This document shows positions 26,245 through 48,052 of a stretch of DNA of 64,000 bases, one piece after another. The stretch is from Afifellaceae bacterium (lineage in GTDB: Bacteria; Pseudomonadota; Alphaproteobacteria; Rhizobiales; Afifellaceae). Within the stretch, counting starts at the first letter, position 1; each line of letters begins with the position of its first letter. Made by a program: the position numbers and the translations under genes. The notes beneath the pieces were generated by a model. That model ran no database searches. It saw only the letters and a list, made by a program, of their open reading frames with translations, and had not been told where the DNA came from. Location of the stretch: positions 62,001-126,000 of the forward strand of contig JANQRH010000029.1 in assembly GCA_028284625.1 (NCBI GenBank). Direction: 5' to 3'.

Positions 26245-26314
26245 CGCTGCTTTCCGTGCGGTTGGACGGCAGGGCCGTCCAAGCTCATTGGCCGGCAGAA
26301 TGCAAAGCGATTGT

Positions 26315-27088: not shown

Positions 27089-27089
27089 A

Positions 27090-27110: not shown

Positions 27111-27135
27111 GAGAATATTCGGATTGATCTCCTTA

Positions 27136-27141
27136 TATAAT
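27136..27141 (+). promoter_or_regulatory. Candidate -10 box of the amidohydrolase operon
   Basis: TATAAT occurs here, ending 5 bp before the ATG at 27147. If used, transcription would begin at about the start codon, giving a leaderless mRNA, or translation would begin further in (GTG 27168). No convincing -35 box is visible at the standard spacing, so the promoter may need an activator. Confidence 0.35.
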
Positions 27142-27146
27142 GGGAT

Positions 27147-28562
27147 ATGGTTTGGCACAATCGGTTTGTGCAAGCATCAGGAACGGCCCCGTTGGCGGAG
27201 TTCGAGACGGTTATTCGCGGCGATGTCGTCGTTCCGGAACGGGTCATCCCCGGCGCCAGCATCGGCATCTCCGACGGCCGAATCTCAAAAATCTCAGCAA
27301 GTGAAACGTTGACCGGGCACCGCGTGGTCGACGCGACGGATTGCTATGTGCTGCCTGGCGCCGTTGACGGCCAGGTTCACGCCTACTCTCAAGCGGATCG
27401 TGAAGGGATCATCATTGCAACGCGGGCGGCCGCGGCCGGGGGTGTCACGACGATCGTGGACATGCCCTATGACGAACCCCAGCCCATCAACAACGCCGAA
27501 CTCTTTCGTCGCAAAGTGGAGGTCGTCGGCGAGGAAGCTCACGTTGACGTTGCGCTATACGCCACCATGGCGAAGGAGGGCGGGGTCGCCGATCTGAAGC
27601 CGCTGATCGAGGCGGGCGCCTGCGCCTTCAAGTTCTCAATGTGCGAGAGCCATCCGATCCGGTTTCCGCGCATTGCGATGGGCGACATGCTCGACGCCTT
27701 TACGACCGTAGCGCCCTCCGGCCTTGCCTGCGGCGTGCATAACGAGAACCAGGAAATCGTCGACACCTGCATCGCGCGGCTCTCCAAGGAGATGCCCAAC
27801 GATCCGCGTGTTCATGGTCTCAGCCGGCCGCCGGTTTCGGAGAGCATGGCGATCGGAGAGGTGTACGAGCTTGGGCTTGCGAGCGGGTGCCGCGCCCATA
27901 TCGTTCATTGCTCCATCGGGCACGGCATCGATCTGTGCACCTACTACAAGGGGCGCGGCGCCAAAGCGAGCATCGAGGTCTGCCTGCATTATCTGGTCTT
28001 CAATGAAGACGAGCTTCTCACCCAAGGTGCAAAAGCCAAGATCAACCCGCCGCTTCGCCCGCAGGCTGAGGTGGAGCGGCTGTGGGATTGCCTGCGCGCC
28101 GGCGAGATCGATTTCGTGTCCACTGACCACGTCGCGTGGAGCCTGGACCACAAGAGCAATCCGGAATTCTTGAAGAACAAATCCGGCGTGCCGGGGCTGG
28201 AAGCGCTCGTGCCGGTCTTCTTCACCGAATGCGTCAAGCGCGGATTTGAGATCACCACGATTGCTCGGATGCTGTCGGAGCAGCCAGCCAAGCACTTCCT
28301 GCTTTATCCGCAAAAAGGTGCGATCCACGTGGGCTCCGACGCCGATTTGATCATCCTGGAGAAGTCGGAGGGCACGATCGACAGCGCGCGCTGGCAAAGC
28401 GCGGCGGAGTGGAGCCCCTATGACGGCCGCCAAGTCTTGGGTCGCGTGGCGGCCACTTATGTTCGCGGTGTCGAAGTGTGGGACGGTTCATCGATCAAAG
28501 TGGAGCCGGGCTTCGGCCGTTTCCTTCGTCCCAATCGAGAGGGGGCATCCCATGCCGCCTAA
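27147..28562 (+). CDS. Cyclic amidohydrolase (allantoinase/dihydropyrimidinase-like) with altered metal site
   Basis: A 471-residue TIM-barrel amidohydrolase expected to open a hydantoin, dihydropyrimidine or allantoin-like ring. Metal-site residues are K162 (carbamylated Lys in FKFS), H198, H254 in HIVHCS, and D327 in VSTDH. The first motif, normally HxH, reads DGQVH: Gln76 replaces the first His. Apart from this the fold looks intact, so the metal site may be mononuclear or altered. The first codon is ATG 27147 or possibly GTG 27168. It overlaps the downstream N-carbamoyl amidohydrolase gene by 11 bp, so both ring opening and decarbamoylation are encoded together. Confidence 0.85.
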   Translation: MVWHNRFVQASGTAPLAEFETVIRGDVVVPERVIPGASIGISDGRISKISASETLTGHRVVDATDCYVLPGAVDGQVHAYSQADREGIIIATRAAAAGGVTTIVDMPYDEPQPINNAELFRRKVEVVGEEAHVDVALYATMAKEGGVADLKPLIEAGACAFKFSMCESHPIRFPRIAMGDMLDAFTTVAPSGLACGVHNENQEIVDTCIARLSKEMPNDPRVHGLSRPPVSESMAIGEVYELGLASGCRAHIVHCSIGHGIDLCTYYKGRGAKASIEVCLHYLVFNEDELLTQGAKAKINPPLRPQAEVERLWDCLRAGEIDFVSTDHVAWSLDHKSNPEFLKNKSGVPGLEALVPVFFTECVKRGFEITTIARMLSEQPAKHFLLYPQKGAIHVGSDADLIILEKSEGTIDSARWQSAAEWSPYDGRQVLGRVAATYVRGVEVWDGSSIKVEPGFGRFLRPNREGASHAA

Positions 28563-29841
28563 GCCGCAGGTCAATTCGGAGCGGCTTTGGCGCGGGATCG
28601 AAGACCTCGCGAAACTCACCGATGGCGAAAAGCCTTTCACCCGCCGGGCGTTCTCCGACCTTTATCTCGAAGGCCGCCGTTATTTGGCGGAGCGGTTCGA
28701 CGAAGCCGGATTGTCCGTGACGCGTGACACGGCAGGCAATCTGGTCGGGCGGCGCGCCGGCACCGAACAAGGACTGGGCTCCGTCGCCGTGGGGTCGCAT
28801 TCCGACACCGTGCCGGCCGGCGGTCGGTTCGACGGCATCGTCGGCGTTCTGGCCGGGCTGGAGATCGCCGAGACGTTGAGCGATGCCGGCATGAAGCTGC
28901 GGCATCCTTTCGAAGTCATCGATTTCTTGGCCGAGGAGCCGAGCCCTTACGGACTGTCCTGCATCGGAAGCCGTGCTGTTTCAGGTGGGCTCTCCGCTGA
29001 CCTTCTGGCCCAGCAAGGCCCGGACGGCAGCACGCTAAAGGATGGAATTGCCAGGGTCGGCGGCGATCCTGATCGGCTGGGCGATAGTCTGCGGTCTGCG
29101 CAGGATATCGCCTGCTTCCTTGAAGTTCATATCGAACAAGGCCCGGTGCTGGAATCGACGGGCGTGCCGATTGGCGTGGTGACCGACATTGCCGGCATCA
29201 CGCGTGTGGAGATCGTCGTTCGCGGCCGCGCCGCGCATTCGGGAACGACGCCGATGACGATGCGCAGCGATGCGCTCGTCGCTGCTTCGGAGATCGTGTT
29301 GTGGGTTGCCCGACAGGCAACCGAATGGGCGGAAACCAAACCGGGCTTCGTCGCAACGATCGGCAGGCAGATCGTGGAGCCGAACGGCGCCAATGTCGTT
29401 GCCGGCCGGGTGACCATGACGCTGGAGATCCGCTCCGGTTCCGACAAAGCACGCAGCGATTTTCTGGCGGAGACGGAAGCTTATGCCCGCGGCCTTGCCG
29501 GCAAGGCGGGCCTTGAAATCGACATGTGCCCGATCAGCGAAAGCGGCGCGGCGGCATGCGACAACACAGTGATTGAGACGCTGAGCGAGGCCTGCAGGTC
29601 GGCCGGCGTCAACTTTCGAATGATGTCCAGCGGCGCCGGGCACGATACCGCGCACATGGCGCGTGTTGTGCCGTCTGGGATGATCTTCATCCCGTGCCGC
29701 GACGGGCGAAGCCATTGCCCCGAAGAATGGGCGGACCGGGATCACGTGGCATGCGGAGCGCAGGTTCTGTGCGACGCGGTGATCCTTCACGACGCGACTG
29801 CCGAAACAAACACACGGTCCGCCTCAGCAATGTTGGCGTAG
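28552..29841 (+). CDS. M20 Zn-dependent N-carbamoyl amino acid amidohydrolase
   Basis: A 429-residue peptidase M20-family amidase, of the group with N-carbamoyl-L-amino acid hydrolase, allantoate amidohydrolase and beta-ureidopropionase. Metal motifs are GSHSDTVPAGGRFDG, EEPSPYG, HIEQGPVLE and the late GRSHCPEEWAD; the dimerisation/substrate motif is GRAAHSGTTPM. ATG 28552 follows AGAGGGGG and overlaps the upstream gene by 11 bp. It would remove the carbamoyl group (CO2 + NH3) after hydantoin ring opening. The EEPSPYG block differs from the usual EEGSRF, which may affect substrate choice. Confidence 0.88.
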   Translation: MPPKPQVNSERLWRGIEDLAKLTDGEKPFTRRAFSDLYLEGRRYLAERFDEAGLSVTRDTAGNLVGRRAGTEQGLGSVAVGSHSDTVPAGGRFDGIVGVLAGLEIAETLSDAGMKLRHPFEVIDFLAEEPSPYGLSCIGSRAVSGGLSADLLAQQGPDGSTLKDGIARVGGDPDRLGDSLRSAQDIACFLEVHIEQGPVLESTGVPIGVVTDIAGITRVEIVVRGRAAHSGTTPMTMRSDALVAASEIVLWVARQATEWAETKPGFVATIGRQIVEPNGANVVAGRVTMTLEIRSGSDKARSDFLAETEAYARGLAGKAGLEIDMCPISESGAAACDNTVIETLSEACRSAGVNFRMMSSGAGHDTAHMARVVPSGMIFIPCRDGRSHCPEEWADRDHVACGAQVLCDAVILHDATAETNTRSASAMLA

Positions 29842-29890
29842 TAGGCGCCGGGTCGTGCCACCGATCCGGCGGGTTATAGGAGGGAGAAAG

Positions 29891-31078
29891 ATGACAGGGT
29901 TGTTCAAAGCTTCGATGCCACGTCGCACGCGCACTGTGGCGCTTGCGGCCGGGTGCATTCTCGCGGCCACAATGGCTTACGCGCAAGACGATTCAGGGCC
30001 GATCTACTTCGCCGTTGCCTCGCCGCTCACCGGCGGTTCGGCGGCCTACGGAATCAACGCCCAACGCGGCGGGGATCTGGCGGTAGAAGCCATCAACGCA
30101 GCCGGCGGGATCGGCGGCCGCGAGGTTGTCTTGGAATATTTCGACGACATGGGCACGCCGCGTGAATCGGCCGCCGTTGCAAACCGCATCGTACGCGATG
30201 ACAAGTTCTGCGCGGTGATCGGGCACGTCAACAGCTCGTCCACACTGGCCGCGATGCCGATCTACAATGAAGCGGGCATCTCGGTGCTCAACGGCTCGTC
30301 AAGTAATCCGTCGATTACCGAGCAAGGGTGGAACAACATCATCCGCATGACGATCCGCGGCGACCGCGGCGCGCAGCAATATTCCGCCTTTGCGATCAAC
30401 AATCTCGGCCATGACGAGTTGGCGATCTTTTACGTGAACAGCGATTTTGGCCGCGCGCTGCGTGACGATATGGTCAAGGCGGTGGATGCGCTCGGCGCCA
30501 AGGTCGTGGCGGAAGAAACCTTCACGCCCAATGTCGATCGCGACTTCTCCGCGCAGATATCGTCGCTGCGCAGGGGCAATCCCGACGTGATCATGCTGAA
30601 CACCGACTACAATGAGGGCGGCCTGTTCCTCGGTCAGGCGCAGGATCGGGATTTCGCCGGGATCGATGTCGTCGGTCCGGACTCCAACCTCTACGACCAG
30701 TTCATCGAGCTGTCGCAGGGGGCGGCGGAAGGCGCCTATTTGCTCGCGGCGTTTGATCCCTTCGCCGACCGGGATGCCGTCAAGACCTTCATGTCCGATT
30801 TTGAGGCAGCGTATGATTCGTTGCCGTCGCAAGTGGCGATCTTCACCCACGACCTTCTGTGGCTTGCCAAGAGAGCGATGGAGGACGAGGGCGCGACCTG
30901 TGACACGCTGATCGATACCGCCAAGAGCATGAACTTCAGCGGTGCCGGCGGCGACTATGCCTGGGACGAGAAGGGCGATGTCAGCGGTCGCACTTTCGCA
31001 GTGATCCAGGTCGTCGACGGCCAGTTCGTCTCCACTGGCAAGGGTGTCGACGAGACTGGACTGGAGGCGCTGCGCTGA
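29891..31078 (+). CDS. Branched-chain-type ABC substrate-binding protein (LivJ-like)
   Basis: A 395-residue type I periplasmic binding protein. ATG 29891 follows AGGAGGGAGAAAG. The signal peptide ends AYA before QDDSGPIYFAVASPLTG. It has the LivJ features GGSAAYGINAQRGGDLAVEAIN and VIGHVNSSSTLAAMPIYNEAGI. It serves the permeases and ATPases at 32206-35661. Two unrelated small genes lie between it and livH. Homologues bind amino acids, amides, urea or aromatic acids, so it may capture the substrate of this catabolic cluster. Confidence 0.9.
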   Translation: MTGLFKASMPRRTRTVALAAGCILAATMAYAQDDSGPIYFAVASPLTGGSAAYGINAQRGGDLAVEAINAAGGIGGREVVLEYFDDMGTPRESAAVANRIVRDDKFCAVIGHVNSSSTLAAMPIYNEAGISVLNGSSSNPSITEQGWNNIIRMTIRGDRGAQQYSAFAINNLGHDELAIFYVNSDFGRALRDDMVKAVDALGAKVVAEETFTPNVDRDFSAQISSLRRGNPDVIMLNTDYNEGGLFLGQAQDRDFAGIDVVGPDSNLYDQFIELSQGAAEGAYLLAAFDPFADRDAVKTFMSDFEAAYDSLPSQVAIFTHDLLWLAKRAMEDEGATCDTLIDTAKSMNFSGAGGDYAWDEKGDVSGRTFAVIQVVDGQFVSTGKGVDETGLEALR

Positions 31079-31098
31079 TTGCACGCTGGCGATCGTGG

Positions 31099-31126
31099 CC
31101 GCCGGCGCCGTTTCGGGTGCCGGCGG
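31099..31126 (+). terminator. Stem-loop after LivJ-like gene
   Basis: An 11-bp stem CCGCCGGCGCC / GGTGCCGGCGG (one G-T pair) with a 6-nt loop lies 21 bp past the stop. There is no U-tract. It probably limits read-through or stabilises the binding-protein mRNA. Confidence 0.6.
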
Positions 31127-31170
31127 TCGATTGCTGCAACCGCTTGGTTTGAGGGAAAGGACAATTGGGA

Positions 31171-31614
31171 ATGGCAGCGAAGACATTTAACTGGCGGCTT
31201 GTGCATTTTGACACGACGCTGCGCCTCGGCCCGGCGCCCCATAATCAGGAGCTATTCGACTGGTTCGTTGAGAACCTCCCCATCCAGACGTTCACCGGCC
31301 AGACGGTTGTCGGCGGGTACAGCTTCTTTCATCTGAGCGTGCCGTTGAAAATTCCGGCGCCGTGGAAGAGCGACAAGGATCTGGTCCAAGAGGACATCTC
31401 GGAGATGCCGGTCGGCCGTCTCAACTTCTTCCTTACCGCCGGCCTGACCGCGGGCATGGCGTTGAAATGGGGCTTCTTCAATGAGCCCATGTCCTATCCG
31501 ACCTGGGCTCAGGTCGTTGAGGAGGACATTCCGGCTCTGGAAGAGGTCGGCAAGAAGGCATGGGACAACATGATGACCCGCAAGGACGTCATGCTGGTCG
31601 AGATGACGGCCTAA
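31171..31614 (+). CDS. Small protein of unknown function in liv-type operon
   Basis: A 147-residue protein with no signal peptide or membrane helix; ATG 31171 has GGGAAAGG upstream. I do not recognise it securely. The C-terminal half (PVGRLNFFLTAGLTAGM, then FFNEPM and VVEEDIPALEEVGKKAW) vaguely recalls the cyclophilin-like domain of cucumopine-synthase-type proteins, an impression from memory only. It lies between a LivJ-like gene and livH, next to a second small protein, and both are co-transcribed with ring-opening enzymes. A cytoplasmic enzyme or enzyme subunit acting on the imported compound is my best guess. Confidence 0.7.
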   Translation: MAAKTFNWRLVHFDTTLRLGPAPHNQELFDWFVENLPIQTFTGQTVVGGYSFFHLSVPLKIPAPWKSDKDLVQEDISEMPVGRLNFFLTAGLTAGMALKWGFFNEPMSYPTWAQVVEEDIPALEEVGKKAWDNMMTRKDVMLVEMTA

Positions 31615-31643
31615 GCGCGAATTCCAGAAGAGGACAAATAGCA

Positions 31644-32156
31644 ATGACCTGGCGTGACGTATTGACGACCATCCAGACCGCCGCGGCTGACATCCAAAAG
31701 GCGCCGCCCGACGACATGCTGCGCCTGTTCCATCACCAGGTCGTGCCGAGCGGGGCTGGCAACAACGCCCAATGCTTCACGACATGGTATTTCGGCGGCG
31801 CGGATATTCGCTATCTCGGCGCTTACACCTATCAGATCGTGAAGCTCGCCGGCGATTCCTCCTTCACGGTGGATCAGCTGAAGACGATGTTTAAGGAGTT
31901 CGTCCCCCAGCCATCGGAGTTCGTGGCCTATTGCGGCGTGCGGACGCAGTGGGAGTACGTTCAGGACATCGTCCGGGTTCTCCCGGAGATCGACGATCGC
32001 GACGACCTTCTGGCGCTGCTCAATGCTTTTCTGAGCTACGCTGCCAGCCTCAATGGCTGGGTCTACCATTACATGAAGTGGGAGATCAGTGGGCTCTATC
32101 AGCATAAGATGCCGGAAGACATCGAGGAGATGTCGCGGCTTTCAAAAGCCTCCTGA
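31644..32156 (+). CDS. Small helical protein of unknown function in liv-type operon
   Basis: A 170-residue protein, predicted soluble and largely helical, with no signal peptide; AGAAGAGGA precedes ATG 31644. Notable segments are FTVDQLKTMFKEF, PSEFVAYCGV and the aromatic NGWVYHYMKW near residue 145. These faintly recall the helical-bundle domain of cucumopine-synthase-related proteins, which act on histidine-derived opines; this is not verified. It sits 29 bp after the other small protein and 49 bp before livH. The pair may be two subunits of one enzyme. Confidence 0.7.
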   Translation: MTWRDVLTTIQTAAADIQKAPPDDMLRLFHHQVVPSGAGNNAQCFTTWYFGGADIRYLGAYTYQIVKLAGDSSFTVDQLKTMFKEFVPQPSEFVAYCGVRTQWEYVQDIVRVLPEIDDRDDLLALLNAFLSYAASLNGWVYHYMKWEISGLYQHKMPEDIEEMSRLSKAS

Positions 32157-32205
32157 CGGGCGGGCGTCTCGCCAGGCTAGCCATGTGTGGGAACTGGAGG
32201 CCTGA

Positions 32206-33081
32206 ATGGCTTATGTGATCGAGCAGCTGATCAACGGTCTGGCGGTCGGCAGCGTCTACGCTTTGATCGCTGTCGGCTATTCCATGGTCTACAGCATTCT
32301 CTATCTGATCAACTTCGCCCATGGCGATGTGATCACCTTCGGCGCCTTCACCGCGCTCACCATGTTGGTGATCGGCGTGCCGATACCGGTGGCGTTGTTC
32401 CTGGCATGCGTGCTTGGCGCAGCACTTGGCATGACGGTGGAGAGGATCGCCTATAGACCGGTGCGATATGCCAACCGTATCGTCCCAATGATCAGCGCGT
32501 TGGGCGCCGGGCTTGTCATCGCCTCCACCGCGCAGGCGATCTGGGGGCCGGAGGTCCACGCCTTCCCGCAGGTTATTCCGCGCTGGTCGTTTGAGCTCTT
32601 CGGGCAGCTCATTCCGTTCCAGCCGCTGATCATTATCGCGATCGCGGTGGTGCTGGTGACGATCGCTACCATCCTGCTTGACTATACGCGGCTTGGACGC
32701 GCGACGAAGTGCGTCTGTCAGGACATCCACGCCGCTCAGCTGATGGGTATTCCCATCAACACCATCGTGCCGCTCGTCTATGCGATCGGCGGCTTTCTCG
32801 GCGTGGCGGGTGCTGTTCTCTACGTCACCTACTTCAACGCCGTCTACATCCAGATGGGCCTTCTGGCGACCTTCAAGGCGTGGTCGGCGGCCATGCTGGG
32901 TGGCGTGGGCAATTTTCACGGTGCCTTTGTGGGTGGCCTCCTGCTCGGCATTGCCGAGGCGTTCTCAGTTGTCGTGGTGGGGTCGGCGTTCAAGGATGGC
33001 GTCAGCTTGGTGTTCATCGTCCTGATCCTGCTTCTGAAGCCGGACGGGCTGTTCGGCGAGCGAACGACAGCCAGATCATGA
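32206..33081 (+). CDS. livH: Branched-chain-type ABC permease LivH
   Basis: A 291-residue permease of the LivH type: N-terminal INGLAVGSVYALIAVGYSMVYSILYLINFAHGD and C-terminal LLKPDGLFGE are family hallmarks. TGGAGG lies upstream of ATG 32206. Its stop overlaps the livM start as ATGA (33078-33081). With LivM it forms the membrane channel of the importer whose binding protein is 29891-31078. Symbol given for the family; the substrate is unlikely to be plain leucine in this setting. Confidence 0.92.
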   Translation: MAYVIEQLINGLAVGSVYALIAVGYSMVYSILYLINFAHGDVITFGAFTALTMLVIGVPIPVALFLACVLGAALGMTVERIAYRPVRYANRIVPMISALGAGLVIASTAQAIWGPEVHAFPQVIPRWSFELFGQLIPFQPLIIIAIAVVLVTIATILLDYTRLGRATKCVCQDIHAAQLMGIPINTIVPLVYAIGGFLGVAGAVLYVTYFNAVYIQMGLLATFKAWSAAMLGGVGNFHGAFVGGLLLGIAEAFSVVVVGSAFKDGVSLVFIVLILLLKPDGLFGERTTARS

Positions 33082-34118
33082 GTGCCTCGCAGCAGACGAC
33101 CCACGCCGAACCGGCGCGTGGGCTCATGGAAAGATGGCTGCCGGCCGTCGCCGCGATCGCGTTCCTCATCGCTTTTCCTTTTGTTGCCGATGGCTATCTG
33201 CTCCATGTCGCCAACATCTCGCTGATCTTCATCTTGCTGGCCATCGGCCAGAACATCATCACCGGCTATACCGGCATGCTGTCTCTCGGGCATGCGGCCT
33301 TCTACGGCGTCGGCGCGTATACGTCGGCGCTGTTGACGCTGCGCCTCGGCGTCAGCTGGCCGGTCGCGTTTCTCGCCTCCGGCGTCGTGGCTTCAATCGT
33401 CGGGATGCTCATTGCGTTGCCGTGCCTGCGTGTGCGCACCGACTTTCTCAGCCTGATCACCATCGCCTTTGCTCAGATGTTCTTCGTCGTAGCCAATGGC
33501 TGGATGGGTTTGACGCGTGGGCCGATGGGATTGACGGGCATCCCGCGCATCTCGATCGGCTCCTGGGTCGCGCACAATGACATCTCCTATTATGCGGTGT
33601 TCGCCTGTATCGTCGTGGTGATCTATGTCGCCGTTCAGCGAATCCTCAACAGCTCGATCGGCCGCGCGTGGGAAATGGTCCGAGACGATGAGGTCGGGGC
33701 GCTGTCGCTCGGGGTCGATGTGACATATTACAAAGTCCTGTCGTTCGGCGTGGGCACGTTCCTCGCCGGATTGGCCGGCAGCATGTTCGCCCATTACATC
33801 CGGTTTCTGTCGCCCGACGCTTTTCTTCTTCTTGAGTCGCTCATCATCATGCAGATGGCGATCCTCGGTGGATTGGCGAGCCTGCCGGGCTCCGTCCTGG
33901 GCGCGGTCCTCCTCATCTCCATTCCCGAGGCGTTGCGCTCTTCAGAACCGCTCCTGATCACCTATCGCCCCGGCTTGGCGGGTGCGCTTCTGGTGGCGAT
34001 GATGATCTGGCGGCCGCAAGGCATTCTGGGCCGCACACGCGCGACACCGCCGATTGTCCGGCAGATCAGCGATACCCTGCGTCGGCTGGTGGGCGCTCGG
34101 CCCGTGGCAAATCCGTAG
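33078..34118 (+). CDS. livM: Branched-chain-type ABC permease LivM
   Basis: A 346-residue permease with the LivM signature GYTGMLSLGHAAFYGVGAYTSALL and the coupling region GRAWEMVRDDEVGALSLGVDV. ATG 33078 overlaps the livH stop; the much longer upstream open frame is antiphase to livH and is rejected. The first ~20 residues are a polar cytoplasmic tail. It ends 8 bp before livG. Confidence 0.92.
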   Translation: MSASQQTTHAEPARGLMERWLPAVAAIAFLIAFPFVADGYLLHVANISLIFILLAIGQNIITGYTGMLSLGHAAFYGVGAYTSALLTLRLGVSWPVAFLASGVVASIVGMLIALPCLRVRTDFLSLITIAFAQMFFVVANGWMGLTRGPMGLTGIPRISIGSWVAHNDISYYAVFACIVVVIYVAVQRILNSSIGRAWEMVRDDEVGALSLGVDVTYYKVLSFGVGTFLAGLAGSMFAHYIRFLSPDAFLLLESLIIMQMAILGGLASLPGSVLGAVLLISIPEALRSSEPLLITYRPGLAGALLVAMMIWRPQGILGRTRATPPIVRQISDTLRRLVGARPVANP

Positions 34119-34126
34119 GCTTCGTC

Positions 34127-34900
34127 GTGGCGCTCTTCCAAGCCACAGACATCACGCGGCGCTTTGCCGGCGTCGTTGCGGTGGACGGCGTGTCGCTCCA
34201 GGTCGACGAGGGTGAGATCCTCGGCCTGATGGGCCCCAATGGCAGCGGCAAGACGACCTTCATCAATTGCGTCAGCGGCGTTGACCAGGCGAACTCAGGC
34301 CGGGTCATGTTCGATGGCAGCGACATTACGAAGATGAAGCCGTTCCGCGTGGCTGAACGCGGCATTGGCCGAACGTTTCAGAACCTCCGGCTCTTTGAAA
34401 ACATGACGACCACCGAGAACGTCATGTGCGGCGGCCATTTGCGGCAGAACACCGGGCTGGTCGGTGCGCTGCTTCCCTCTCGCTCACGGCAGCAGCGCAA
34501 TGCTGAGGAACGTGAGCGCGCCGTCTCGCTTCTGCGTGAGGTGGGGCTGGAGGATCGCATCGATCAATATGCGACGGATCTCTCCTACGGCCAGACCAAG
34601 AGGCTGGAGCTCGCCCGCGCGCTCAACATCGAGCCGCGGCTCTTGCTGCTGGACGAACCGACCGCCGGCATGAACGATCGCCAGGCGGCAGAGATTTTGG
34701 GATTGGTGCGGCGCATTCAGCGTGACCGCGGCATCGCCATGATCGTGATTGAGCACAACGTGCCGGCGCTGGTTTGGCTGGCCGATCGCATTGCCGTTTT
34801 GGAGGCGGGGCGGGTCCTGGTTGAGGATGAGCCAGAGATTGTGGCGCGCCATCCTGACGTCATTCGCGCGTATCTCGGCGAGGAGGCGCTTGACGAATGA
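34127..34900 (+). CDS. livG: Branched-chain-type ABC ATP-binding protein LivG
   Basis: A 257-residue ATPase starting at GTG 34127. Walker A GPNGSGKTT (near 39-47), signature LSYGQ, Walker B LLLLDEPTAGM and the H-loop in VIEHNV identify LivG. It overlaps livF by 4 bp (ATGA). It energises the LivHM channel together with LivF. Confidence 0.93.
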   Translation: MALFQATDITRRFAGVVAVDGVSLQVDEGEILGLMGPNGSGKTTFINCVSGVDQANSGRVMFDGSDITKMKPFRVAERGIGRTFQNLRLFENMTTTENVMCGGHLRQNTGLVGALLPSRSRQQRNAEERERAVSLLREVGLEDRIDQYATDLSYGQTKRLELARALNIEPRLLLLDEPTAGMNDRQAAEILGLVRRIQRDRGIAMIVIEHNVPALVWLADRIAVLEAGRVLVEDEPEIVARHPDVIRAYLGEEALDE

Positions 34901-35661
34901 GCCTGCTGGAGATCCGGGACGTCACGTGCGGCTACGGGCACCGCATGGTGATCGATTCCATGAGCGTGACGGTGGACGAAGGCGAAGGCGTCTCGCTGCT
35001 CGGGCACAACGGCACCGGTAAGAGCACGCTGATCCGCGCCATCTCCGGCGTGATTCCGGTCAAATCGGGCGCTATCCTCTTTGAGGGGAAGCCGGTCGCC
35101 AATCTCACGCCCGACGCCCTGGTCAAGCGGGGCATCGTTCATGTGCCTGCGGGTCGCCGCGTCTTTCCCAATATGAGCGTTGAGCACAATCTGGAGGCCG
35201 GCGCGTTCACGCGCACCGACCGCCAAGAGGTCTGGCACGACGTGGAAGCCATGATGGAGCGCTTCCCGATATTGGGAGAGCGTCGCAAGAGTGCGGCCGG
35301 CCTGCTCAGCGGCGGCGAGCAGCAGGTGCTGGCCGTCGCGCGCGGCTTGATGGCGCGTCCCAAACTGCTGATGGTCGACGAGCCGTCGCTTGGATTGTCG
35401 CCGACCATGGTGCAGTTCGTCTTCGGCATCCTGGCGGAGCTGCGCAAGGATGGGACGAGTGTCATGCTCGCCGAGCAGAACGTCCGCAAGGCGCTTGCCG
35501 TCACCGACCGGGCCTATGTGCTGGCGCAGGGCCGCGTCATCATGGACGGGCCAAGCGAGTCATTGCTCAGCAGCGAAGCGTTCCGCGAGGACTATCTCGG
35601 CGCAAAACGCGGCGGCAGCTTCGGCGAGCTGGTCGAGGAAGCGCTGGGCACACAATCATGA
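34897..35661 (+). CDS. livF: Branched-chain-type ABC ATP-binding protein LivF
   Basis: A 254-residue ATPase. Walker A GHNGTGKST, signature LSGGEQQ, Walker B LLMVDEPSLGLSP and the H-loop position reading LAEQN match LivF. Its start overlaps the livG stop and its stop overlaps the following SDR start (ATGA at 35658-35661), so transport and metabolic genes are translationally coupled. Confidence 0.93.
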   Translation: MSLLEIRDVTCGYGHRMVIDSMSVTVDEGEGVSLLGHNGTGKSTLIRAISGVIPVKSGAILFEGKPVANLTPDALVKRGIVHVPAGRRVFPNMSVEHNLEAGAFTRTDRQEVWHDVEAMMERFPILGERRKSAAGLLSGGEQQVLAVARGLMARPKLLMVDEPSLGLSPTMVQFVFGILAELRKDGTSVMLAEQNVRKALAVTDRAYVLAQGRVIMDGPSESLLSSEAFREDYLGAKRGGSFGELVEEALGTQS

Positions 35662-36428
35662 GCCGGTCGGCGTCGACGATCCCTGGCGCCGTGCTCGTCG
35701 CTGGCGCGACCGGGCGGATCGGCGCAGATATCTGCCGCGCTGTGGCGTCCGCTGGTGCGTCGGTCTTCGTGCATTGTCGCAGCCGGAAGACCGAAGCACA
35801 GAAGCTCGTCGACGAAATCCGTGCATCAGGCGGAGAGGCGGCTGCCTTTGGCGCAGACCTTACGCGCCGCGACGAAGCGGAGGCTTTGATCAACGCCGCA
35901 TGCAGCCGCTTTGGCCAGATATACGGCATCGTCAATTGCGTTCATCCGCAATTCGCTCCCAAGCCGTTGATCGATGGCGACTGGGACACGGACTGGGCGA
36001 CGCATTTTCAGGACGGGCTGCGCGCCGCGGTCAACCTGACGCTCGCAGGGGCGGAGCAGGGCGGGCTGCGCCGCGTGGTCCATATTTCCGGCGGCCTCAG
36101 TACGCGTCCGGCCGTGGGATGCGCCCCCTACAGCGCCGCCAAGGCCGCCCTGAATATGCTGGCCAAGACAAGCGCGCTGGAGCTTGGCGCCGCTAACGTC
36201 GCAGTCAACATCGTGGCGCCCGGAGAGGTCGCGGGGGAGGATGGCGACGCCACCGACCATCCCGCCGCCTTCGCCGAACTGAACAAGGCGGCGAAGGCCG
36301 CCGCGCCGCTTGCGGGCGTGGCGCGGCCCGCCGACGTCAGCGAGGCGGTGCTTTACTTCCTTGGAACGGGCGCAGATTTCGTGACCGGTCAGACGCTTTA
36401 TGTCTCCGGCGGTCAAGTCATCCCGTAG
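35658..36428 (+). CDS. SDR-family oxidoreductase (canonical)
   Basis: A 256-residue NAD(P)-dependent short-chain dehydrogenase. The cofactor motif is GATGRIG (near 17-23) and the active site PYSAAKAA holds the YxxxK pair; the C-terminus FVTGQTLYVSGG is typical. It starts in an ATGA overlap with livF. A second SDR follows 9 bp downstream. In this operon it may oxidise or reduce a ring or side-chain hydroxyl of the imported compound. Confidence 0.88.
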   Translation: MSRSASTIPGAVLVAGATGRIGADICRAVASAGASVFVHCRSRKTEAQKLVDEIRASGGEAAAFGADLTRRDEAEALINAACSRFGQIYGIVNCVHPQFAPKPLIDGDWDTDWATHFQDGLRAAVNLTLAGAEQGGLRRVVHISGGLSTRPAVGCAPYSAAKAALNMLAKTSALELGAANVAVNIVAPGEVAGEDGDATDHPAAFAELNKAAKAAAPLAGVARPADVSEAVLYFLGTGADFVTGQTLYVSGGQVIP

Positions 36429-36437
36429 GAGTGCTTA

Positions 36438-37178
36438 GTGGACGATCCTCCCGAAAATCCGCTCGCCGGCAGGATTGCTTTGGTCACCGGTTCGGCGGAG
36501 CGTGTCGGTAAAGTCGTCGCTCTGGCGCTGGCGCAAGCGGGCGCCGACATCATCGTCAATCACCTTGATCGCAAGGACGCGGCCGAGGCCACAGTCGCGG
36601 AGATCGAGGCTCTGGGACGCCGCGCCATCGCCGTGGAAGCCGATGTCAGCAATCCGAGCCATGTGGAACGGATGATGGCGGCGGCGGAGTCGTTCGGCGG
36701 ATTGCACATCCTGGTCAACAGCGCGTCGAACTTCGTGACCGCCCCGTTCGACGAGCTCAGTCATGATGACTGGCGGGCGTCCTTGTCGGTGATCCTGACC
36801 GGTGCGTTCTTGTGCACGCAGCGGTCCGCGCGGCTTATGCGCGACGGCGGCAAGATCATCAATGTCATCGGCATCTCGGCCACCGAGAACTGGCCCGACT
36901 ATGTTTCCCACAGCGTCGCCAAAGCGGGGCTTGTGAAGCTCACTGAAGTGACAGCGGTTGCTTTGGGGCCGGGCATCCAGGTCAATGGAATTTCCCCCGG
37001 AACGCTGCTGATCAACGAGGGCGACGCCCACGGCTCAGTCGAACTGCCCGATCTCGGCGGGCTGATGCCGCGCGGAACGGCGGAGGACCTCGCCGCACTC
37101 GTCGTCGCGCTCTGCAGCTCAGGCGACTATCTCACCGGCGCGATCATTCCCCTCGATGGCGGGCGCCGCCTCGTCTGA
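36438..37178 (+). CDS. SDR-family protein lacking the catalytic tyrosine
   Basis: A 246-residue Rossmann protein of the SDR type from GTG 36438. It has a dinucleotide motif (TGSAERVG, 17-24), an NNAG-equivalent reading NSASN and a C-terminal YLTGAIIPLDGG. The active-site motif reads HSVAK (158-162), so His replaces the usual Tyr of YxxxK; a Tyr lies three residues earlier (Y155). It may be a partner subunit of the preceding SDR, a pteridine-reductase-like variant, or use different chemistry. It is the last gene of the rightward operon. Confidence 0.85.
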   Translation: MDDPPENPLAGRIALVTGSAERVGKVVALALAQAGADIIVNHLDRKDAAEATVAEIEALGRRAIAVEADVSNPSHVERMMAAAESFGGLHILVNSASNFVTAPFDELSHDDWRASLSVILTGAFLCTQRSARLMRDGGKIINVIGISATENWPDYVSHSVAKAGLVKLTEVTAVALGPGIQVNGISPGTLLINEGDAHGSVELPDLGGLMPRGTAEDLAALVVALCSSGDYLTGAIIPLDGGRRLV

Positions 37179-37189
37179 ACCGAGCGTTT

Positions 37190-38191
37190 CTATCGGAAGG
37201 CAGGGATGATCGTCTCGCCATATTCGGCGATGATCTGTTCCTCCTTGCCGCTGTCGAGATAGATGTTGAACTGCGTGATCCCGACCTCCTTGAGCTTGCG
37301 CAGCTTTTCGATGTGCTCCTCCGCTTCGCCCAGTACGGAAAAGGCATCGATGATCTCGTCGGTGATGAAGTCGAGATAGGGGTTATCGCTCTGGCCATGC
37401 TTGGAATAGTCGTAGCCTTTGCGGTCCTTGATGTAGGCGGTCAGCGACGGCGGGATGTCCTCGCGGTCGGTGCCGTAGCGCTCAACGATATCGGCGACAT
37501 GATTGCCCACCATGGCGGGGAACCAGCGCGTCGCCTCGCGCGCCGCCGCACGGTCGCCCAGAAATGCGGGCGCGGCCGCCATGATCTTGTAATTGGACAT
37601 GTCGCGACCGGCCGCTTTGCCTGCCGCGATGGCCTGGTCGCCCAGCCATTTGCAGATCGCGGGCTCGGCGATCTGAAGGATCAAACCGTCCCCGACCTTT
37701 CCAGCGGATGTCAGCGCTTTGGGCCCATAGGCCGCCACCCAGACCGGTAGCTCGTAACCCACCGCCCACGGGAACTGCACCGGATTCGGACAATCGCCGT
37801 ATTGCGCTTCATCGCCGCGCACGAGCGCCTTCACGACGTGGGTGAATTCTTCCAGCCGTGCAAGTGGTGCCGGCTTTTTGCCCATGACGCGCACAGCGCT
37901 GTCGCCGCGCCCTAGCCCGATGTCGAAGCGGCCGCCGGATTGCTTGGCGAGCGAGCCGAAGAGCGAGGCCGCCGCCGACCAGTCCCGCGTGTTGGGGTTG
38001 GTCACGCAGGGGCCGAAGCGCATCGTCTTGGTGTGCTCCATACACATCGCCATGGCCGGGAACGATTCCCGCCACAGGATGTGACTGTCGTAGAACCAGC
38101 AATAGGCAAAGCCTGCATGCTCTGCCAGCCGCACAAGGGCACGCGCGCGATCGGGTTCGACGAAACCCTTAAAGCAGATAGCGAATTCCAT
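37190..38191 (-). CDS. LLM-class flavin/F420-dependent oxidoreductase
   Basis: A 333-residue luciferase-like monooxygenase-fold protein. The sequence FGPCVTNPNTRDWSAAASLFGSLAKQSGGRFDIGLGRGDSAVR is characteristic of the F420-dependent reductase side of the family (Mer-like; I recall a subgroup annotated after Colwellia CPS_4354). It is encoded on the same strand as, and downstream of, an F420:NADP-type reductase (38367-39035), and convergent with the catabolic operon, ending 11 bp from it. It probably reduces or oxidises an intermediate using F420H2 or FMN. F420 use is inferred, not shown. Confidence 0.82.
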   Translation of the reverse strand: MEFAICFKGFVEPDRARALVRLAEHAGFAYCWFYDSHILWRESFPAMAMCMEHTKTMRFGPCVTNPNTRDWSAAASLFGSLAKQSGGRFDIGLGRGDSAVRVMGKKPAPLARLEEFTHVVKALVRGDEAQYGDCPNPVQFPWAVGYELPVWVAAYGPKALTSAGKVGDGLILQIAEPAICKWLGDQAIAAGKAAGRDMSNYKIMAAAPAFLGDRAAAREATRWFPAMVGNHVADIVERYGTDREDIPPSLTAYIKDRKGYDYSKHGQSDNPYLDFITDEIIDAFSVLGEAEEHIEKLRKLKEVGITQFNIYLDSGKEEQIIAEYGETIIPAFR

Positions 38192-38276
38192 AATGTCCTC
38201 CTGTTACGGCGTGCTCCGGCTAAACGATAGAGCGTTAAGGCGATTCAGTGAAACGCGAAAACGCTCAGAGCCCTAT

Positions 38277-38367
38277 CCATTCTGACCCGATCAGAATGGA
38301 GGCTCTATCTCTTTTGCGGAGCATGACCTTATCCGAAAAACCGGTCTCCACTTTCGGGATCATGCTC
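38277..38367. repeat. Rhizobial-type intergenic palindromic element, copy 1
   Basis: Two nested palindromes: CCATTCTGA-N5-TCAGAATGG (38277-38299) and GAGCATGA ... TCATGCTC (38319-38367) with a CGAAAAACCGGT...ACTTTCGGG core. This arrangement matches a dispersed intergenic element common in Hyphomicrobiales. It touches the last base of the F420:NADP reductase stop and may also act as a transcriptional terminator. A second copy, inverted, is at 42222-42331. Confidence 0.75.
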
Positions 38368-39035
38368 TAATGGTCGGGTGCCCAGATGCGAATGCCCGCA
38401 TGCGAGAAGGGCACGGCCTTTGAGATGTTGATGCGAATGAGGATGGGCGTGATCGCTTCAATACAGCGCGCCGATTGGGCGTCGCCGGCATTATAGGCTT
38501 CGACCCCGAGTTTGCGCACCAGATCGATCACCTTCTTGCGGGCATCGAGACTATTGCCGCATACGAGCACGTCGCAATTGATGTCCCAGTCAAGCGTGTT
38601 CAGCGTGTGCGCGGAGACGTTGTGGAGCGCTCCAATCACAGGGACGTCGGGCCCGACGATCGCCTGCGCTGCCTCCGTGGCGGAACCTTCAGGCGGCATG
38701 TCGACCTTCTTGGGGTCGTTCTCAGACAGCGGCACTACGATGTCGACCAGGATCTTGCCGGCGAGCCGGTCCTTGATAGCCTGCAGCGTCTTGTTGTGAC
38801 CGGACCAGGGCACGGCGAGGATGACCAGCTCATCGGCCGCATCGACGGCATCATCATTGCCGAGGCCGGTGATGTCGGCGGCGCCATCGGGGAGCTTCGC
38901 TTTGAGCTCGTCGACAATCTGGGCGGCACGTGCGGCGTCGCGCGAGCCGAGCGCCACCGGTACGCCCGCACGGGCAAACCGAAGGGCCAAGCCCTGGCCT
39001 TGCGGTCCGGTGCCGCCGAGAATTGCGATGGTCAT
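38367..39035 (-). CDS. NADPH:F420 reductase-like (Fno/NpdG family)
   Basis: A 222-residue Rossmann protein from ATG 39035 (AGGAGG upstream). The N-terminus [23 protein letters not shown] and the later [18 protein letters not shown] and [14 protein letters not shown] are close to F420-dependent NADP reductases, which pass hydride between NADPH and coenzyme F420. It is paired with the LLM enzyme 37190-38191, as expected if it regenerates F420H2. F420 biosynthesis genes are not in the window; without them the protein could be an NADP-only relative. Confidence 0.82.
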
Positions 39036-41082: not shown

Positions 41083-42222
41083 ATGCGTTTCGATCTCGTT
41101 CTCACAAACGGCCGGGTTATCGATCCATCGCAGAACATCGATGCGGTGTGCGACGTCGCCTTCGCCGACAAGAAGGTTGCCAAGATCGGCGAGGGGTTGG
41201 CGCAGGCGGCCGACGATGTGCGTGACGTCAGCGGCAAGATCGTCACGCCCGGACTGATCGACCTCCACACGCATGTCTATTGGGGTGGCACGTCGCTCGG
41301 CATCGATGCGGAGCATTTCGCCCGCATCAGCGGTGTCACGACGTCCGTTGATACCGGCAGCGCGGGGCCCGGCAATTTTCACGGCTTCCGCCAGCATGTC
41401 ATCGATCCGTCGGCAGTGCGCGTGCTGGCCTATTTGAACATCTCGTTTGCCGGCATCTATGCGTTCTCGTCACGCATCATGGTGGGCGAGAGCGAGGATC
41501 ACCGACTGATGGCACCGCGCGAAGTCGCGGCGGTGATTGAGGCAAACCGTGACGTCATTGTCGGGGTCAAGGTGCGGATCGGCCGCCACACGAGCGGGCC
41601 GCGGGGAATTACGCCGCTCGACTCAACGCTTGCCGCCGCCGAGGAGGTCGGGCTTCCCGTCATGTGCCATATCGACGAGCCGCCGCCCACTTATGAAGCG
41701 GTGGTGGATCGGCTGAGGCCCGGCGACGTGCTCACGCATTGTTTCCGCCCGTTTCCCAATACTCCCTATATGCGCGATGGCCGCGTAAAGGAGGCCGTGC
41801 TGGCGGCGCGCGAGCGTGGCGTCATCTTCGACATCGGTCACGGCAAGGGCTCGTTCGCCTTCAAAACGGCTCGCGCCATGCTGGCCGCCGGCTTCCCGCC
41901 CGATACGATCTCGTCGGATATCCATACGCTGTGCATCGACGGTCCGGTCTATGACCAGGTGACGACGATGACAAAGTTCCTCGGCCTCGGCATGCCGCTC
42001 ACCGAGGTGATCGCCCGCTCTACCATCGAGGCGGCCAAGGCGCTGAACAGACCTGAGCTTGGAACGCTGGCGCCGGGCGCCGTCGGCGATGCGTCGATCC
42101 TCTCGCTGAAGGCCGGACGCGTCGAGCTTGAGGACGTGGAAGGTGAAATCCTTGAGGTCGACGAGCGGCTGGTTGCCGATGGCGTGGTCGTCGCCGGCAA
42201 GTGGTGGCATCCGAGTGACTAG
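41083..42222 (+). CDS. Amidohydrolase/deacetylase-family metallohydrolase
   Basis: A 379-residue TIM-barrel amidohydrolase. It has HTH in LIDLHTHVYWGG (metal-binding), a candidate bridging Lys in GVKVRIGRH, His in MCHIDEPP and SSDIHT with the catalytic Asp. This is the dihydroorotase-like deacetylase group (Atu3266-type), known to hydrolyse N-acyl or ester bonds of amino- or hydroxy-acid derivatives. ATG 41083 (MRFDLVLTNGRVIDP) is the family start; 15 residues can be added from 41038. It stands alone, upstream of a rhizobial intergenic repeat. Confidence 0.85.
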   Translation: MRFDLVLTNGRVIDPSQNIDAVCDVAFADKKVAKIGEGLAQAADDVRDVSGKIVTPGLIDLHTHVYWGGTSLGIDAEHFARISGVTTSVDTGSAGPGNFHGFRQHVIDPSAVRVLAYLNISFAGIYAFSSRIMVGESEDHRLMAPREVAAVIEANRDVIVGVKVRIGRHTSGPRGITPLDSTLAAAEEVGLPVMCHIDEPPPTYEAVVDRLRPGDVLTHCFRPFPNTPYMRDGRVKEAVLAARERGVIFDIGHGKGSFAFKTARAMLAAGFPPDTISSDIHTLCIDGPVYDQVTTMTKFLGLGMPLTEVIARSTIEAAKALNRPELGTLAPGAVGDASILSLKAGRVELEDVEGEILEVDERLVADGVVVAGKWWHPSD

Positions 42223-42331
42223 AGCATGATCCCGAAAGCATGCCCCCGACGCGGCCGGGGGTGGATACCAATTTTCCGATAAGATCAGGCAAACAAAAAG
42301 TAGAGCTTCCATTCTGATTCAATCAGAGCGG
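42222..42331. repeat. Rhizobial-type intergenic palindromic element, copy 2
   Basis: Begins with GAGCATGATCCCGAAAG and contains CCAATTTTCCGATAAGATCA and then CCATTCTGATTCAATCAGAGCGG. It has the same two blocks as copy 1 at 38277-38367 but in the opposite order and orientation, and it is less perfect. It touches the stop codon of the deacetylase gene. Confidence 0.7.
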
Positions 42332-42472
42332 AAAGGCTCCAAATCAACGAGCGAAGGGGCCGCGAGCTCGCGGAGACGCGCGCGTCAAAAGGTCAGATGG
42401 TGGCGCTGCGGTCGGTGCCGCCATATGGCTTCAGCCGCATAAAAACGTTGGTCGAACAAAGAAGTGAATCCT

Positions 42473-42946
42473 ATGCCGATTGGTGAACAAGAACTGTCAG
42501 CCGCCCGTACCGCTTGGGGGGAAGGCCTCATATCCGTCTCAAGGGCCTACGAGGCTGGTGGGATTGATGAGGCAAGACGGGTCGCGGGCGACATCTTAGA
42601 TGCCGCCTATGGCTATGATCTGGGACCGGTCTTGTTCAAACCGACGTTGAGCGGGGGAGAACAGACATTTCGCACAACAAAGAAGGGTGCCTTGTCCTAT
42701 TTCGTCGGCCACGATCCCGACTACCCTCTCGACGGCGGATTTGGAATTAAGGGATGGCGCGCTGTGACATCAGAGACGGCCGCAAGTTTCATCGAGGGCG
42801 ATGTCGCCATGTGGATGGGCTGGTTTTCGATGACAAACCAGGACGGTCAAGTGACCAAAGTCGACAAGAGCTTTGGATATAGGAAGGGCCCTGACGGGCG
42901 CCTGAAAATTGTCCTTCACCATTCATCGCTGCCGTTCGAACCCTAA
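42473..42946 (+). CDS. NTF2-like (SnoaL/DUF4440-type) protein
   Basis: A 157-residue small protein from ATG 42473 (MPIGEQELSAARTAWGEGLI); a GTG 9 nt upstream is possible. The C-terminal half has the strand pattern of the NTF2-like fold: VAMWMGWFSMTNQDG, VTKVDKSFGYRKGPDGRLKIVLHHSSLPF, where the final HHSSLP is frequent in that family. The N-terminus is helical. There is no signal peptide. The function is unknown; members are ligand-binding or scavenging proteins. The 250-bp gap upstream holds the intergenic repeat. Confidence 0.75.
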   Translation: MPIGEQELSAARTAWGEGLISVSRAYEAGGIDEARRVAGDILDAAYGYDLGPVLFKPTLSGGEQTFRTTKKGALSYFVGHDPDYPLDGGFGIKGWRAVTSETAASFIEGDVAMWMGWFSMTNQDGQVTKVDKSFGYRKGPDGRLKIVLHHSSLPFEP

Positions 42947-46001: not shown

Positions 46002-46085
46002 GGCCTACGCGCTCCTGAGATGTTCTGTAGCGACCGGAATATCGAGACTTGCCGTCCTCCGACAGCCCGGCATCGGCCAGTTCTG

Positions 46086-46101
46086 TTGCAACCGGTTGCA
46101 A
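46086..46101. promoter_or_regulatory. Perfect palindromic operator between dehydrogenase and iolD
   Basis: TTGCAACCGGTTGCAA is a perfect 16-bp palindrome in the 179-bp divergent region. The CG centre and length are those of LacI/GntR-type repressor sites. It probably controls both the dehydrogenase gene and the iolDCB operon. Confidence 0.55.
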
Positions 46102-46180
46102 AATCCCGTATCAGCAGGACTATCGGCGCGCAACACCCTTCGCCCTGTCGGGCAGCGTTTGCCGCCTTGAGGGTGACCCC

Positions 46181-48052
46181 ATGAGCGGACAGCAACCAAC
46201 CATTCGCCTGACCACGGCGCAGGCGATCGTGCGTTTTCTGACGGCGCAGTTCATCGACATCGACGGGCAAGAGACGCGCCTGTGTGGCGGTGGCTTCGCC
46301 ATTTTCGGGCATGGCAACGTGCCATGTCTTGGCGAAGCGCTTTACGGGCTCAACGACGTGCTGCCGCTCTATCGCGGGCAGAACGAGCAGAGCATGGGCT
46401 TCGCCGCGGCGGCCTACGCCAAATATCATCTCAGGCAACGCTTCATGTTCTGCACGGCGAGCGCCGGGCCGGGCACGGCGAACCTTTTGACGGCGGCCGC
46501 ACTTGCTCATGCCAACCGCCTGCCGATGCTGATGCTCTGCGGCGACACGTACATCACGCGCCTGCCGGATCCGGTGCTGCAGCAGTTGGAGCATTTCGGC
46601 AATCCGAGCCTCGGACTGAACGACGCCTTCAAGGCCGTGTCGCGTTACTGGGACCGCATCGTCCATCCCGCGCAGGTGATCCAGTCGCTGCCGGCGGCGA
46701 TTGCTACGATGCTCGACCCGGCCGATTGCGGCCCCGCCTTTATCGGACTGCCACAGGATGTTCAGGGATGGGCTCACGACTTTCCCGCGCGGCTGTTTGA
46801 GAAGCGCGTCCATCGCATTCGCCGGGTTCAGCCCGACGCGGCGGAGATCGCAGATGCTGCCGCGCTCTTGAAGACTGCCGAGCGCCCGATGATCATCGCT
46901 GGCGGCGGCGTGCAATATTCACGTGCCGTGGCGGAGCTCACGGCGTTTGCGGAACGGCATGCCATCCCCGTCGTGGAGACGATCGCCGGACGCGCCAACA
47001 TGGTCGCCACGCATCCGCTCAATATCGGACCCGTCGGCGTGACCGGATCGGACAGCGCGAACACAATCGCCGCGGAAGCGGATGTGATTCTGGCGGTCGG
47101 CACGCGCCTTCAGGATTTTACGACGGGCTCGTGGACCGCGTTTGCGCATGACGCGCAGATCATCGGTCTAAATGCGGCGCGACACGATGCCGGCAAGCAC
47201 ATGTCGCTAACCATCGTCGGCGACGCGAAGCTCGGCCTGACGGCGTTGGACGAGACGCTTGCCGCTTTCAGCGCGCCCGAAGCGTGGACCGCCAAGGCGC
47301 AGCAGGAGCGCAAGCGTTGGGACGAGGCTGTCGCCAAGAACGTGGCGCCGAGCAATCGGCCTAACAGCTACGCGCAGGCTATTGGCGTGGTGAACGCGCT
47401 TTGCGATCCGCGCGACCGTGTCGTCACAGCGGCCGGAGGCCTGCCTGCGGAAGTGACGGCCAATTGGCGCACGCTCGACATCGGCACGGTCGACGTGGAG
47501 TTCGGCTTCTCCTGCATGGGCTACGAGATTGCCGGCGGGTGGGGTGCGCGCATTGCGCAATCGGAAAAGGAACCCGAGCAGGACACGATCGTGTTCGTCG
47601 GCGACGGCTCCTACCTCTTGATGAATTCCGACATCTACTCCGCCGCGCTCACGAAGAAGAAGCTCATCATCCTCGTGCTCGACAATGGCGGGTTCGCGGT
47701 GATCAACAAATTGCAGACCAACACCGGCAATGAAAGCTTCAACAATCTGTTCAGCGACTGCCCGACGATCGCGGAGCCGTTTGCCATGGACTTTGAGGCG
47801 CATGCCGCCGCCATGGGTGCGGTGGCGGAGACCGTCGCCAGTCCGGCGGAGTTGGGCGAAGCGTTCAAGCGCGCCAAGGCCGATCCGCGCACGCATGTGA
47901 TTGTGATGAAAGTCGACGCCTATGACGGCTGGACGGAAGGCGGCCACGCTTGGTGGGAAGTCGGCACGCCGCAAGTGTCGGAGAGCGAAAAGGTGCGCGA
48001 AGCACACAAGAATTGGGAAGCGGAGCGCCATAAGCAGCGGCAGGGTGTGTGA
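46181..48052 (+). CDS. iolD: 3D-(3,5/4)-trihydroxycyclohexane-1,2-dione hydrolase IolD
   Basis: Thiamin-diphosphate enzyme that opens the inositol-derived ring (diketo intermediate) to 5-deoxy-glucuronate. 623 residues from ATG 46181. Family features are LTTAQAIVRFLTAQFID at the start, GHGNVPCLGEAL, the TPP half-site RGQNEQSMGFAAAAYAK with its catalytic Glu, and the TPP/Mg site GDGSYLLMNSDIYSA..LDNGGFAVINKLQ. It overlaps iolC by one base (TGATG). The open frame continues upstream to 46049, but the iolD family start is at MSGQQPTIRLT. Confidence 0.95.
   Translation: MSGQQPTIRLTTAQAIVRFLTAQFIDIDGQETRLCGGGFAIFGHGNVPCLGEALYGLNDVLPLYRGQNEQSMGFAAAAYAKYHLRQRFMFCTASAGPGTANLLTAAALAHANRLPMLMLCGDTYITRLPDPVLQQLEHFGNPSLGLNDAFKAVSRYWDRIVHPAQVIQSLPAAIATMLDPADCGPAFIGLPQDVQGWAHDFPARLFEKRVHRIRRVQPDAAEIADAAALLKTAERPMIIAGGGVQYSRAVAELTAFAERHAIPVVETIAGRANMVATHPLNIGPVGVTGSDSANTIAAEADVILAVGTRLQDFTTGSWTAFAHDAQIIGLNAARHDAGKHMSLTIVGDAKLGLTALDETLAAFSAPEAWTAKAQQERKRWDEAVAKNVAPSNRPNSYAQAIGVVNALCDPRDRVVTAAGGLPAEVTANWRTLDIGTVDVEFGFSCMGYEIAGGWGARIAQSEKEPEQDTIVFVGDGSYLLMNSDIYSAALTKKKLIILVLDNGGFAVINKLQTNTGNESFNNLFSDCPTIAEPFAMDFEAHAAAMGAVAETVASPAELGEAFKRAKADPRTHVIVMKVDAYDGWTEGGHAWWEVGTPQVSESEKVREAHKNWEAERHKQRQGV

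Follow-up and report, generated by a model that had tools for sequence, protein, structure and literature searches.

A luciferase-like protein encoded beside NpdG as a probable F420H2-dependent pyrimidine reductase of Alphaproteobacteria

Introduction

What does a luciferase-like (LLM) oxidoreductase do when it is encoded next to an F420:NADP reductase in an alphaproteobacterium? According to a 2021 review, studies of F420-dependent enzymes had not reached any bacteria outside the Actinobacteria, and Oligotropha and Paracoccus seemed to use the cofactor in a minor or niche-specific way; trace amounts of F420 have been reported in Paracoccus denitrificans (PMC8498797). The gene pair in question lies in a 64,000-nucleotide stretch of genomic DNA (hereafter the window), for which a first-pass annotation had suggested an F420H2-dependent reduction of a heteroaromatic ring. 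Herein, gene identities, neighbourhoods in relatives, the distribution of known pyrimidine reductases and a structure model are brought together, and they point to the pyrimidines uracil and thymine as the likely substrates.

The LLM and npdG genes

The window (C14:62001-126000) belongs to a genome, G000, of 3.92 Mb in 31 contigs, with an estimated completeness of 100%. Its initial placement as a probable member of the Hyphomicrobiales agrees with the labelling of a same-genus MAG (G211) as Afifellaceae, a family of that order. The features at the locus are as follows:

36438-37178, + strand: SDR dehydrogenase, last gene of a convergent catabolic operon; boundary, outside the F420 unit
37190-38191, - strand: LLM (luciferase-like) F420-dependent oxidoreductase, 333 aa, TIGR03842; proposed F420H2-dependent uracil/thymine reductase
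38192-38366, - strand: npdG-LLM intergenic stretch with a palindrome-type repeat (gagcatgatcccgaaa...) and the LLM ribosome-binding site AGGAGGAC
38367-39035, - strand: npdG/fno, NADPH-dependent F420 reductase; ATG start at 39035, reading frame open to 39068

The two genes lie on the same strand, as had been described, with npdG upstream of LLM and a gap of 175 bp between them. The LLM product matches Pfam family PF00296 (Bac_luciferase, 209 bits), and residues 2-332 of its 333 match the NCBIfam family TIGR03842 with 500.9 bits (curated cut-off 295.45), making it a full-length member; the GRGDSAVR motif described earlier occupies residues 94-101. By sequence it is not a member of the PydA/PreA family (NF006183). 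The npdG product scores 192.2 bits against TIGR01915 (cut-off 149.8), which places it in the NpdG/Fno family as first annotated, and the end assigned to it at 39035 proved to be its ATG start. Its nearest solved structures are the F420:NADP oxidoreductases 5n2i and 1jax. Both genes have a coding base composition, with G+C raised at third positions, and a GGAGGAC-type ribosome-binding site precedes each; that of LLM, before its ATG start, is AGGAGGAC. The palindrome-type intergenic repeat gagcatgatcccgaaa occurs in two copies, at 38348-38368(-) and 42221-42241(+), one with 3 mismatches, where none would be expected by chance. Further along, 42464-42946(+) resembles a metal-independent (iota-type) carbonic anhydrase (187 bits, below the cut-off of 350), and 46049-48052(+) is the myo-inositol catabolism gene iolD (795 vs 715 bits), with further iol genes likely downstream.

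Genes for F420 synthesis and pyrimidine degradation in the window genome

A search of the genome for the F420 biosynthesis genes had been proposed at the outset. The CofD and CofH searches led to a single locus, L002 on contig C5, in which every gene lies above its curated cut-off:

L002 8697-9461: cofE, 251.8 bits
L002 9458-10426: cofD, 303.8 bits
L002 10423-11046: cofC, 156.3 bits
L002 11043-13475: cofGH (fused), 1127 bits

These genes form an overlapping four-gene operon, cofE-cofD-cofC-cofGH (8697-13475). All the genes sought were therefore found, complete and on a contig other than that of the window, and since all four score above their cut-offs the bacterium is expected to make F420. 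The earlier suggestion that it uses this cofactor is supported accordingly. A pyrimidine-degradation (pyd) cluster was found on contig C9 (L064):

C9, 2908-4362: dihydropyrimidinase, 601 bits (genome search)
C9, 4424-5674: carbamoyl hydrolase
C9, 6197-7693: semialdehyde dehydrogenase, 736.7 bits
C9, 7712-9037: omega-aminotransferase, 752.8 bits
C9, same cluster: ABC genes

There is no PreTA in this cluster, no PreA match in the genome at E <= 1e-90 and no RutA in a genome search at E <= 1e-60. Because both PreTA and RutA are missing, the genome without LLM would hold a pyrimidine degradation pathway lacking any known first enzyme. In the window genus, the npdG-LLM pair is linked to neither the cof operon nor the pyd cluster.

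Gene neighbourhoods in relatives

Among 249 Hyphomicrobiales genomes drawn for comparison, TIGR03842 was found above cut-off in 19. In three families (coded f44, f22 and f51), LLM is the last gene of a cofG-cofH-cofD-cofC-cofE-npdG-LLM operon, and fragmented assemblies agree as far as the contig reaches. In f44 and f22 this operon is adjoined by a dihydropyrimidinase (612.6 and 580.5 bits, TIGR02033), a Zn carbamoyl hydrolase and an NMT1-type ABC transporter, with a TetR_C_3 regulator (YcdC/RutR-type, PF08362) beside it; f44 also carries methylmalonate-semialdehyde dehydrogenase and, in several genomes, omega-aminotransferase (AptA). These sets match the reductive pyrimidine (Pyd) pathway, as its gene set is defined in PMC7332683, minus the first enzyme PydA/PreTA.

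A wider sample gave the same picture. When the best 80 of 395 relatives found in genome contigs were inspected over +-10 kb, cof genes were present in 69/80 and hydA/pydC in 37/80 (about 0.3 expected by chance), one or both in 76/80, and preA in none of these 80. In six loci (L084, L087, L090, L122, L126 and L127), LLM comes first and is followed by pydC-hydA-ABC. These loci contain no cof gene, and no other gene of the operon is a candidate for the missing reductive step. In Paracoccus denitrificans DSM 413 (L148), pydC-hydA adjoin cof-npdG-LLM. Nearly every other lineage inspected that has close relatives likewise has LLM in the company of F420 genes, reductive pyrimidine catabolism or both. 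One contig labelled Nocardioides marinus (L145) carries an alphaproteobacterial-type cof-npdG-LLM set with an LLM 77% identical, and is probably mislabelled or contaminated.

More diverged TIGR03842 members (G442 and G534, 53-57% identical) adjoin cof or hydantoinase/oxoprolinase-type genes and stand without pyd genes. The wider family may therefore act on other rings, and since its diverged proteins sit elsewhere, the pyrimidine proposal is limited to the close alphaproteobacterial branch (67-97% identical). In a further locus from another order (L161 1442-6421), a diverged TIGR03842 gene lies beside hydantoinase/oxoprolinase A and B-type genes, as judged by sequence, with other ring substrates possible.

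Exclusion and exchange between LLM and PreA

PreA was sought with model NF006183, which was confirmed with E. coli preA and is blind to any unrelated, unknown pyrimidine reductase; all genome searches were run at fixed cut-offs. Across the 249 Hyphomicrobiales genomes, PreA was found in 88 and dihydropyrimidinase in 155. All 19 LLM genomes carry dihydropyrimidinase and none carries PreA. Within the dihydropyrimidinase-positive genomes, PreA thus occurs in 0/19 with LLM vs 85/136 without (Fisher p = 6e-8, kinship ignored), and such p-values overstate the support because the genomes are related. A class-level draw of 327 genomes contained 5 with LLM (4 of them new), with PreA in 0/5, and PreA was found in 51 others. 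The idea that F420 production alone excludes PreA was rejected, as 3 of the 12 genomes with CofH and no LLM (G015, G166 and G198) have kept PreA. Given that F420 producers lacking LLM can keep PreA, the exclusion is tied to LLM and not to F420.

Exchange between the two genes can be followed among close relatives. In one genus, G051 has the order preT-preA-rutR-aptA-mmsdh-pydC-hydA-ABC, and G088 has hydA-pydC-mmsdh beside cof-npdG-LLM with no preA; in another genus, preTA is present in G127 and absent from G242. Within the window's own family, preTA lies beside the pyd genes in G138 and G231, and the pyd cluster stands without preTA in G000 and G211. On HydA and PydC trees of 20 such clusters, the LLM/PreA label needs 5 changes, and well-supported branches force at least 4 of them on the HydA tree and at least 5 on the PydC tree. 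These sister-species swaps and repeated label changes make the exchange recurrent rather than one inherited event. As a putative functional analogue of dihydropyrimidine dehydrogenase, LLM stands with or replaces PydA in the pyd clusters of close relatives; for the window genus this is by replacement only. One LLM genome (G005) has RutA as well, which counts against the proposed role; four RutA-like genes stand in tandem in that genome (G005:C34:29794-34320).

CofE linkage and a predicted salvage variant

CofE was found in 19/19 LLM genomes vs 0/8 of the LLM-free relatives tested. Five genomes of another family (f6) have LLM and CofE, with neither CofH nor NpdG above cut-off. At their loci (L041 4666-16318; also L039 and L042), LLM lies beside F420-0 importer genes, CofE and an F420-dependent G6P dehydrogenase (Fgd, 502 bits), and it adjoins a nucleoside hydrolase and a BMP-type transporter. 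The importer permease (436.7 vs 437.35) and ATPase (330.5 vs 372.4) score below cut-off. On the simplest reading of these genes, F420-0 would be imported, its tail added by CofE and the cofactor reduced by Fgd, the loss of synthesis being judged by CofH. The three loci are predicted to represent F420 salvage serving pyrimidine use. Since CofE, the F420-0 importer and Fgd accompany LLM, F420 is supported as its cofactor even in f6.

Structure and putative active site

An AlphaFold2 model of LLM (mean pLDDT 85.5) has a fold nearest to that of F420-bound Mer (TM 0.80, 28% identity), followed by other F420 enzymes and then by FMN monooxygenases. In Mer, Asp96 and a strand-6 carboxamide touch the pterin at its pyrimidine end, and activation of the C1 unit falls to the essential Glu6 (PMC11094777). 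In a profile alignment, Asp96 is kept (LLM Asp97), as is the carboxamide that closes strand 6 (LLM Gln173), and Glu6 aligns with Cys or Thr. Retention of the putative pyrimidine contacts together with loss of the C1 acid would fit a pyrimidine substrate.

Alternative explanations

The genomic setting raises the question of whether LLM serves the adjoining cluster of the window, reducing an imidazole-derived ring with F420H2. This catabolic region (21725-37178), the right half of which is retained in the sister species, encodes a creatininase-family protein, UbiX, a histidine-lyase-like protein (540.9 vs 539.15 bits), UbiD, an ErtD-like protein (588 vs 600) and ErtE (580 vs 520), along with a binding protein, a 149-aa protein without a family, a Cucumopine_C protein, a liv transporter and two SDRs. 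The region looks like one that breaks down a compound resembling histidine or ergothioneine, with the UbiD step unexplained. Retention of the adjacency in G211, with ErtE above and ErtD slightly below cut-off, speaks for such a function; however, the SDR-side synteny is kept in G211 only, the adjacency is confined to the window genus, transcription is convergent, and elsewhere a 67-85% identical LLM accompanies cof/pyd genes. The ergothioneine route is not known to require such a reductase. A link with the ergothioneine/histidine-like cluster was accordingly rejected as the main reading on account of its genus-specific adjacency and convergent orientation, and we regard it as unlikely. The first-pass idea of F420H2-dependent heteroaromatic ring reduction is favoured in its general form, whereas its extension to the ring handled by the window's catabolic cluster is not supported.

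The remaining alternatives concern the enzyme itself. RutA is an LLM protein that acts on uracil, and the shared fold and the nearby RutR-type regulator (PF08362) would suit oxidative opening of the pyrimidine ring by a RutA-like monooxygenase that depends on FMN, with F420 being unrelated. Yet LLM has no match to the RutA model TIGR03612 at E <= 0.001, it is accompanied in 19/19 genomes both by CofE and by dihydropyrimidinase, which needs a reduced ring, and in the CofH-lacking f6 it sits with the F420-0 importer, CofE and the F420-dependent G6P dehydrogenase; this function is highly improbable. Equally improbable is an Fgd/Adf-like dehydrogenase whose sole task would be to reduce F420 for some other enzyme. 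The superfamily is common to both, and alphaproteobacterial F420 producers encode Fgd and Fno (PMC8498797), but LLM reaches just 31 bits with the broader Fgd-family model TIGR03557 (cut-off 210), it usually adjoins NpdG or, in one family, a true Fgd (502 bits), so that an F420-reducing enzyme is at hand in either case, and the L084-like pyd operons contain no other candidate reductase. A bacterial Mer, that is, an F420-dependent methylene-tetrahydropterin reductase, would agree with Mer being the closest family of known structure in both sequence (26-28% identity) and fold, but both Mer models score far below their cut-offs (127.7 vs 348.7 and 133.6 vs 276 bits), the essential Glu6 (PMC11094777) is Cys/Thr in LLM, and no linkage to C1 genes was seen, making this assignment very doubtful as well.

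Proposed pathway and significance

Altogether, and as judged from gene content and context, LLM is likely to stand in for PydA as an F420H2-dependent reductase of uracil and thymine, with NpdG recharging it from NADPH. The cofE-D-C-GH operon on contig C5 would provide for F420 synthesis, NpdG would transfer hydride from NADPH to F420, and LLM would pass the hydride of F420H2 to C6 of uracil or thymine, with protonation at C5. LLM would thereby take the place of the flavin/iron-sulphur enzyme PydA/PreTA at the start of reductive pyrimidine catabolism, converting uracil into dihydrouracil and thymine into dihydrothymine. Dihydropyrimidinase would then open the reduced ring, and the carbamoyl hydrolase, omega-aminotransferase and (methyl)malonate-semialdehyde dehydrogenase encoded on C9 would complete the degradation.

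In broader terms, we lean slightly towards the proposition that F420 in many Alphaproteobacteria mainly serves one enzyme, a pyrimidine reductase that uses F420H2 and has taken the place of PydA several times, and that a related family keeps the enzyme after loss of F420 synthesis through F420-0 import, glutamate addition by CofE and reduction by Fgd. Such a role is precise and testable, and may explain the patchiness of the cofactor in the class. With it, pyrimidine catabolism would gain a further, unrelated kind of first enzyme, an orphan protein family known from common marine Alphaproteobacteria (Pseudovibrio, Ruegeria, Leisingera and SAR116) would gain a substrate, and Paracoccus denitrificans, which is grown in laboratories, would gain an F420 enzyme. 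A literature search, with most subscription journals and preprints outside its scope, linked neither F420 nor TIGR03842 to pyrimidine catabolism, and earlier publication is possible.

Comparison with known systems

NpdG of the window is by score an ordinary member of the Fno/NpdG F420:NADP oxidoreductases, with known structures as its nearest relatives. LLM is likewise a member by score of TIGR03842 (F420_CPS_4043, an NCBIfam hypothetical equivalog), a family that carries no assigned substrate and for the alphaproteobacterial branch of which one is proposed here. Mer, the F420-dependent methylene-H4MPT reductase (1z69, 8qpl), is nearest to LLM in both fold and sequence, and its pyrimidine-contacting Asp and carboxamide appear to be kept; it differs in its Glu6, in an identity of only 26-28% and in genomic context. 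A parallel replacement in N-heterocycle metabolism is offered by Chloroflexota uric acid clusters, in which a PF00296 F420 candidate occurs where the YgfK/UacX reductase is expected (PMC12507026); that putative yanthine reductase belongs to another phylum, concerns another substrate, was proposed from gene neighbourhood and has no pyrimidine link (PMC12507026, 2025). A further counterpart is the Pyd pathway, in which the known PydA/PreTA dihydropyrimidine dehydrogenases comprise NAD(P)H types and the ferredoxin-dependent PydAc (PMC7332683). The downstream enzymes, NMT1-type transporter and RutR-type regulator are shared with PreTA-bearing relatives, and the reaction proposed is identical. In contrast to PydA, LLM is an unrelated single-domain barrel without FMN or Fe-S domains, and its carrier would be F420.
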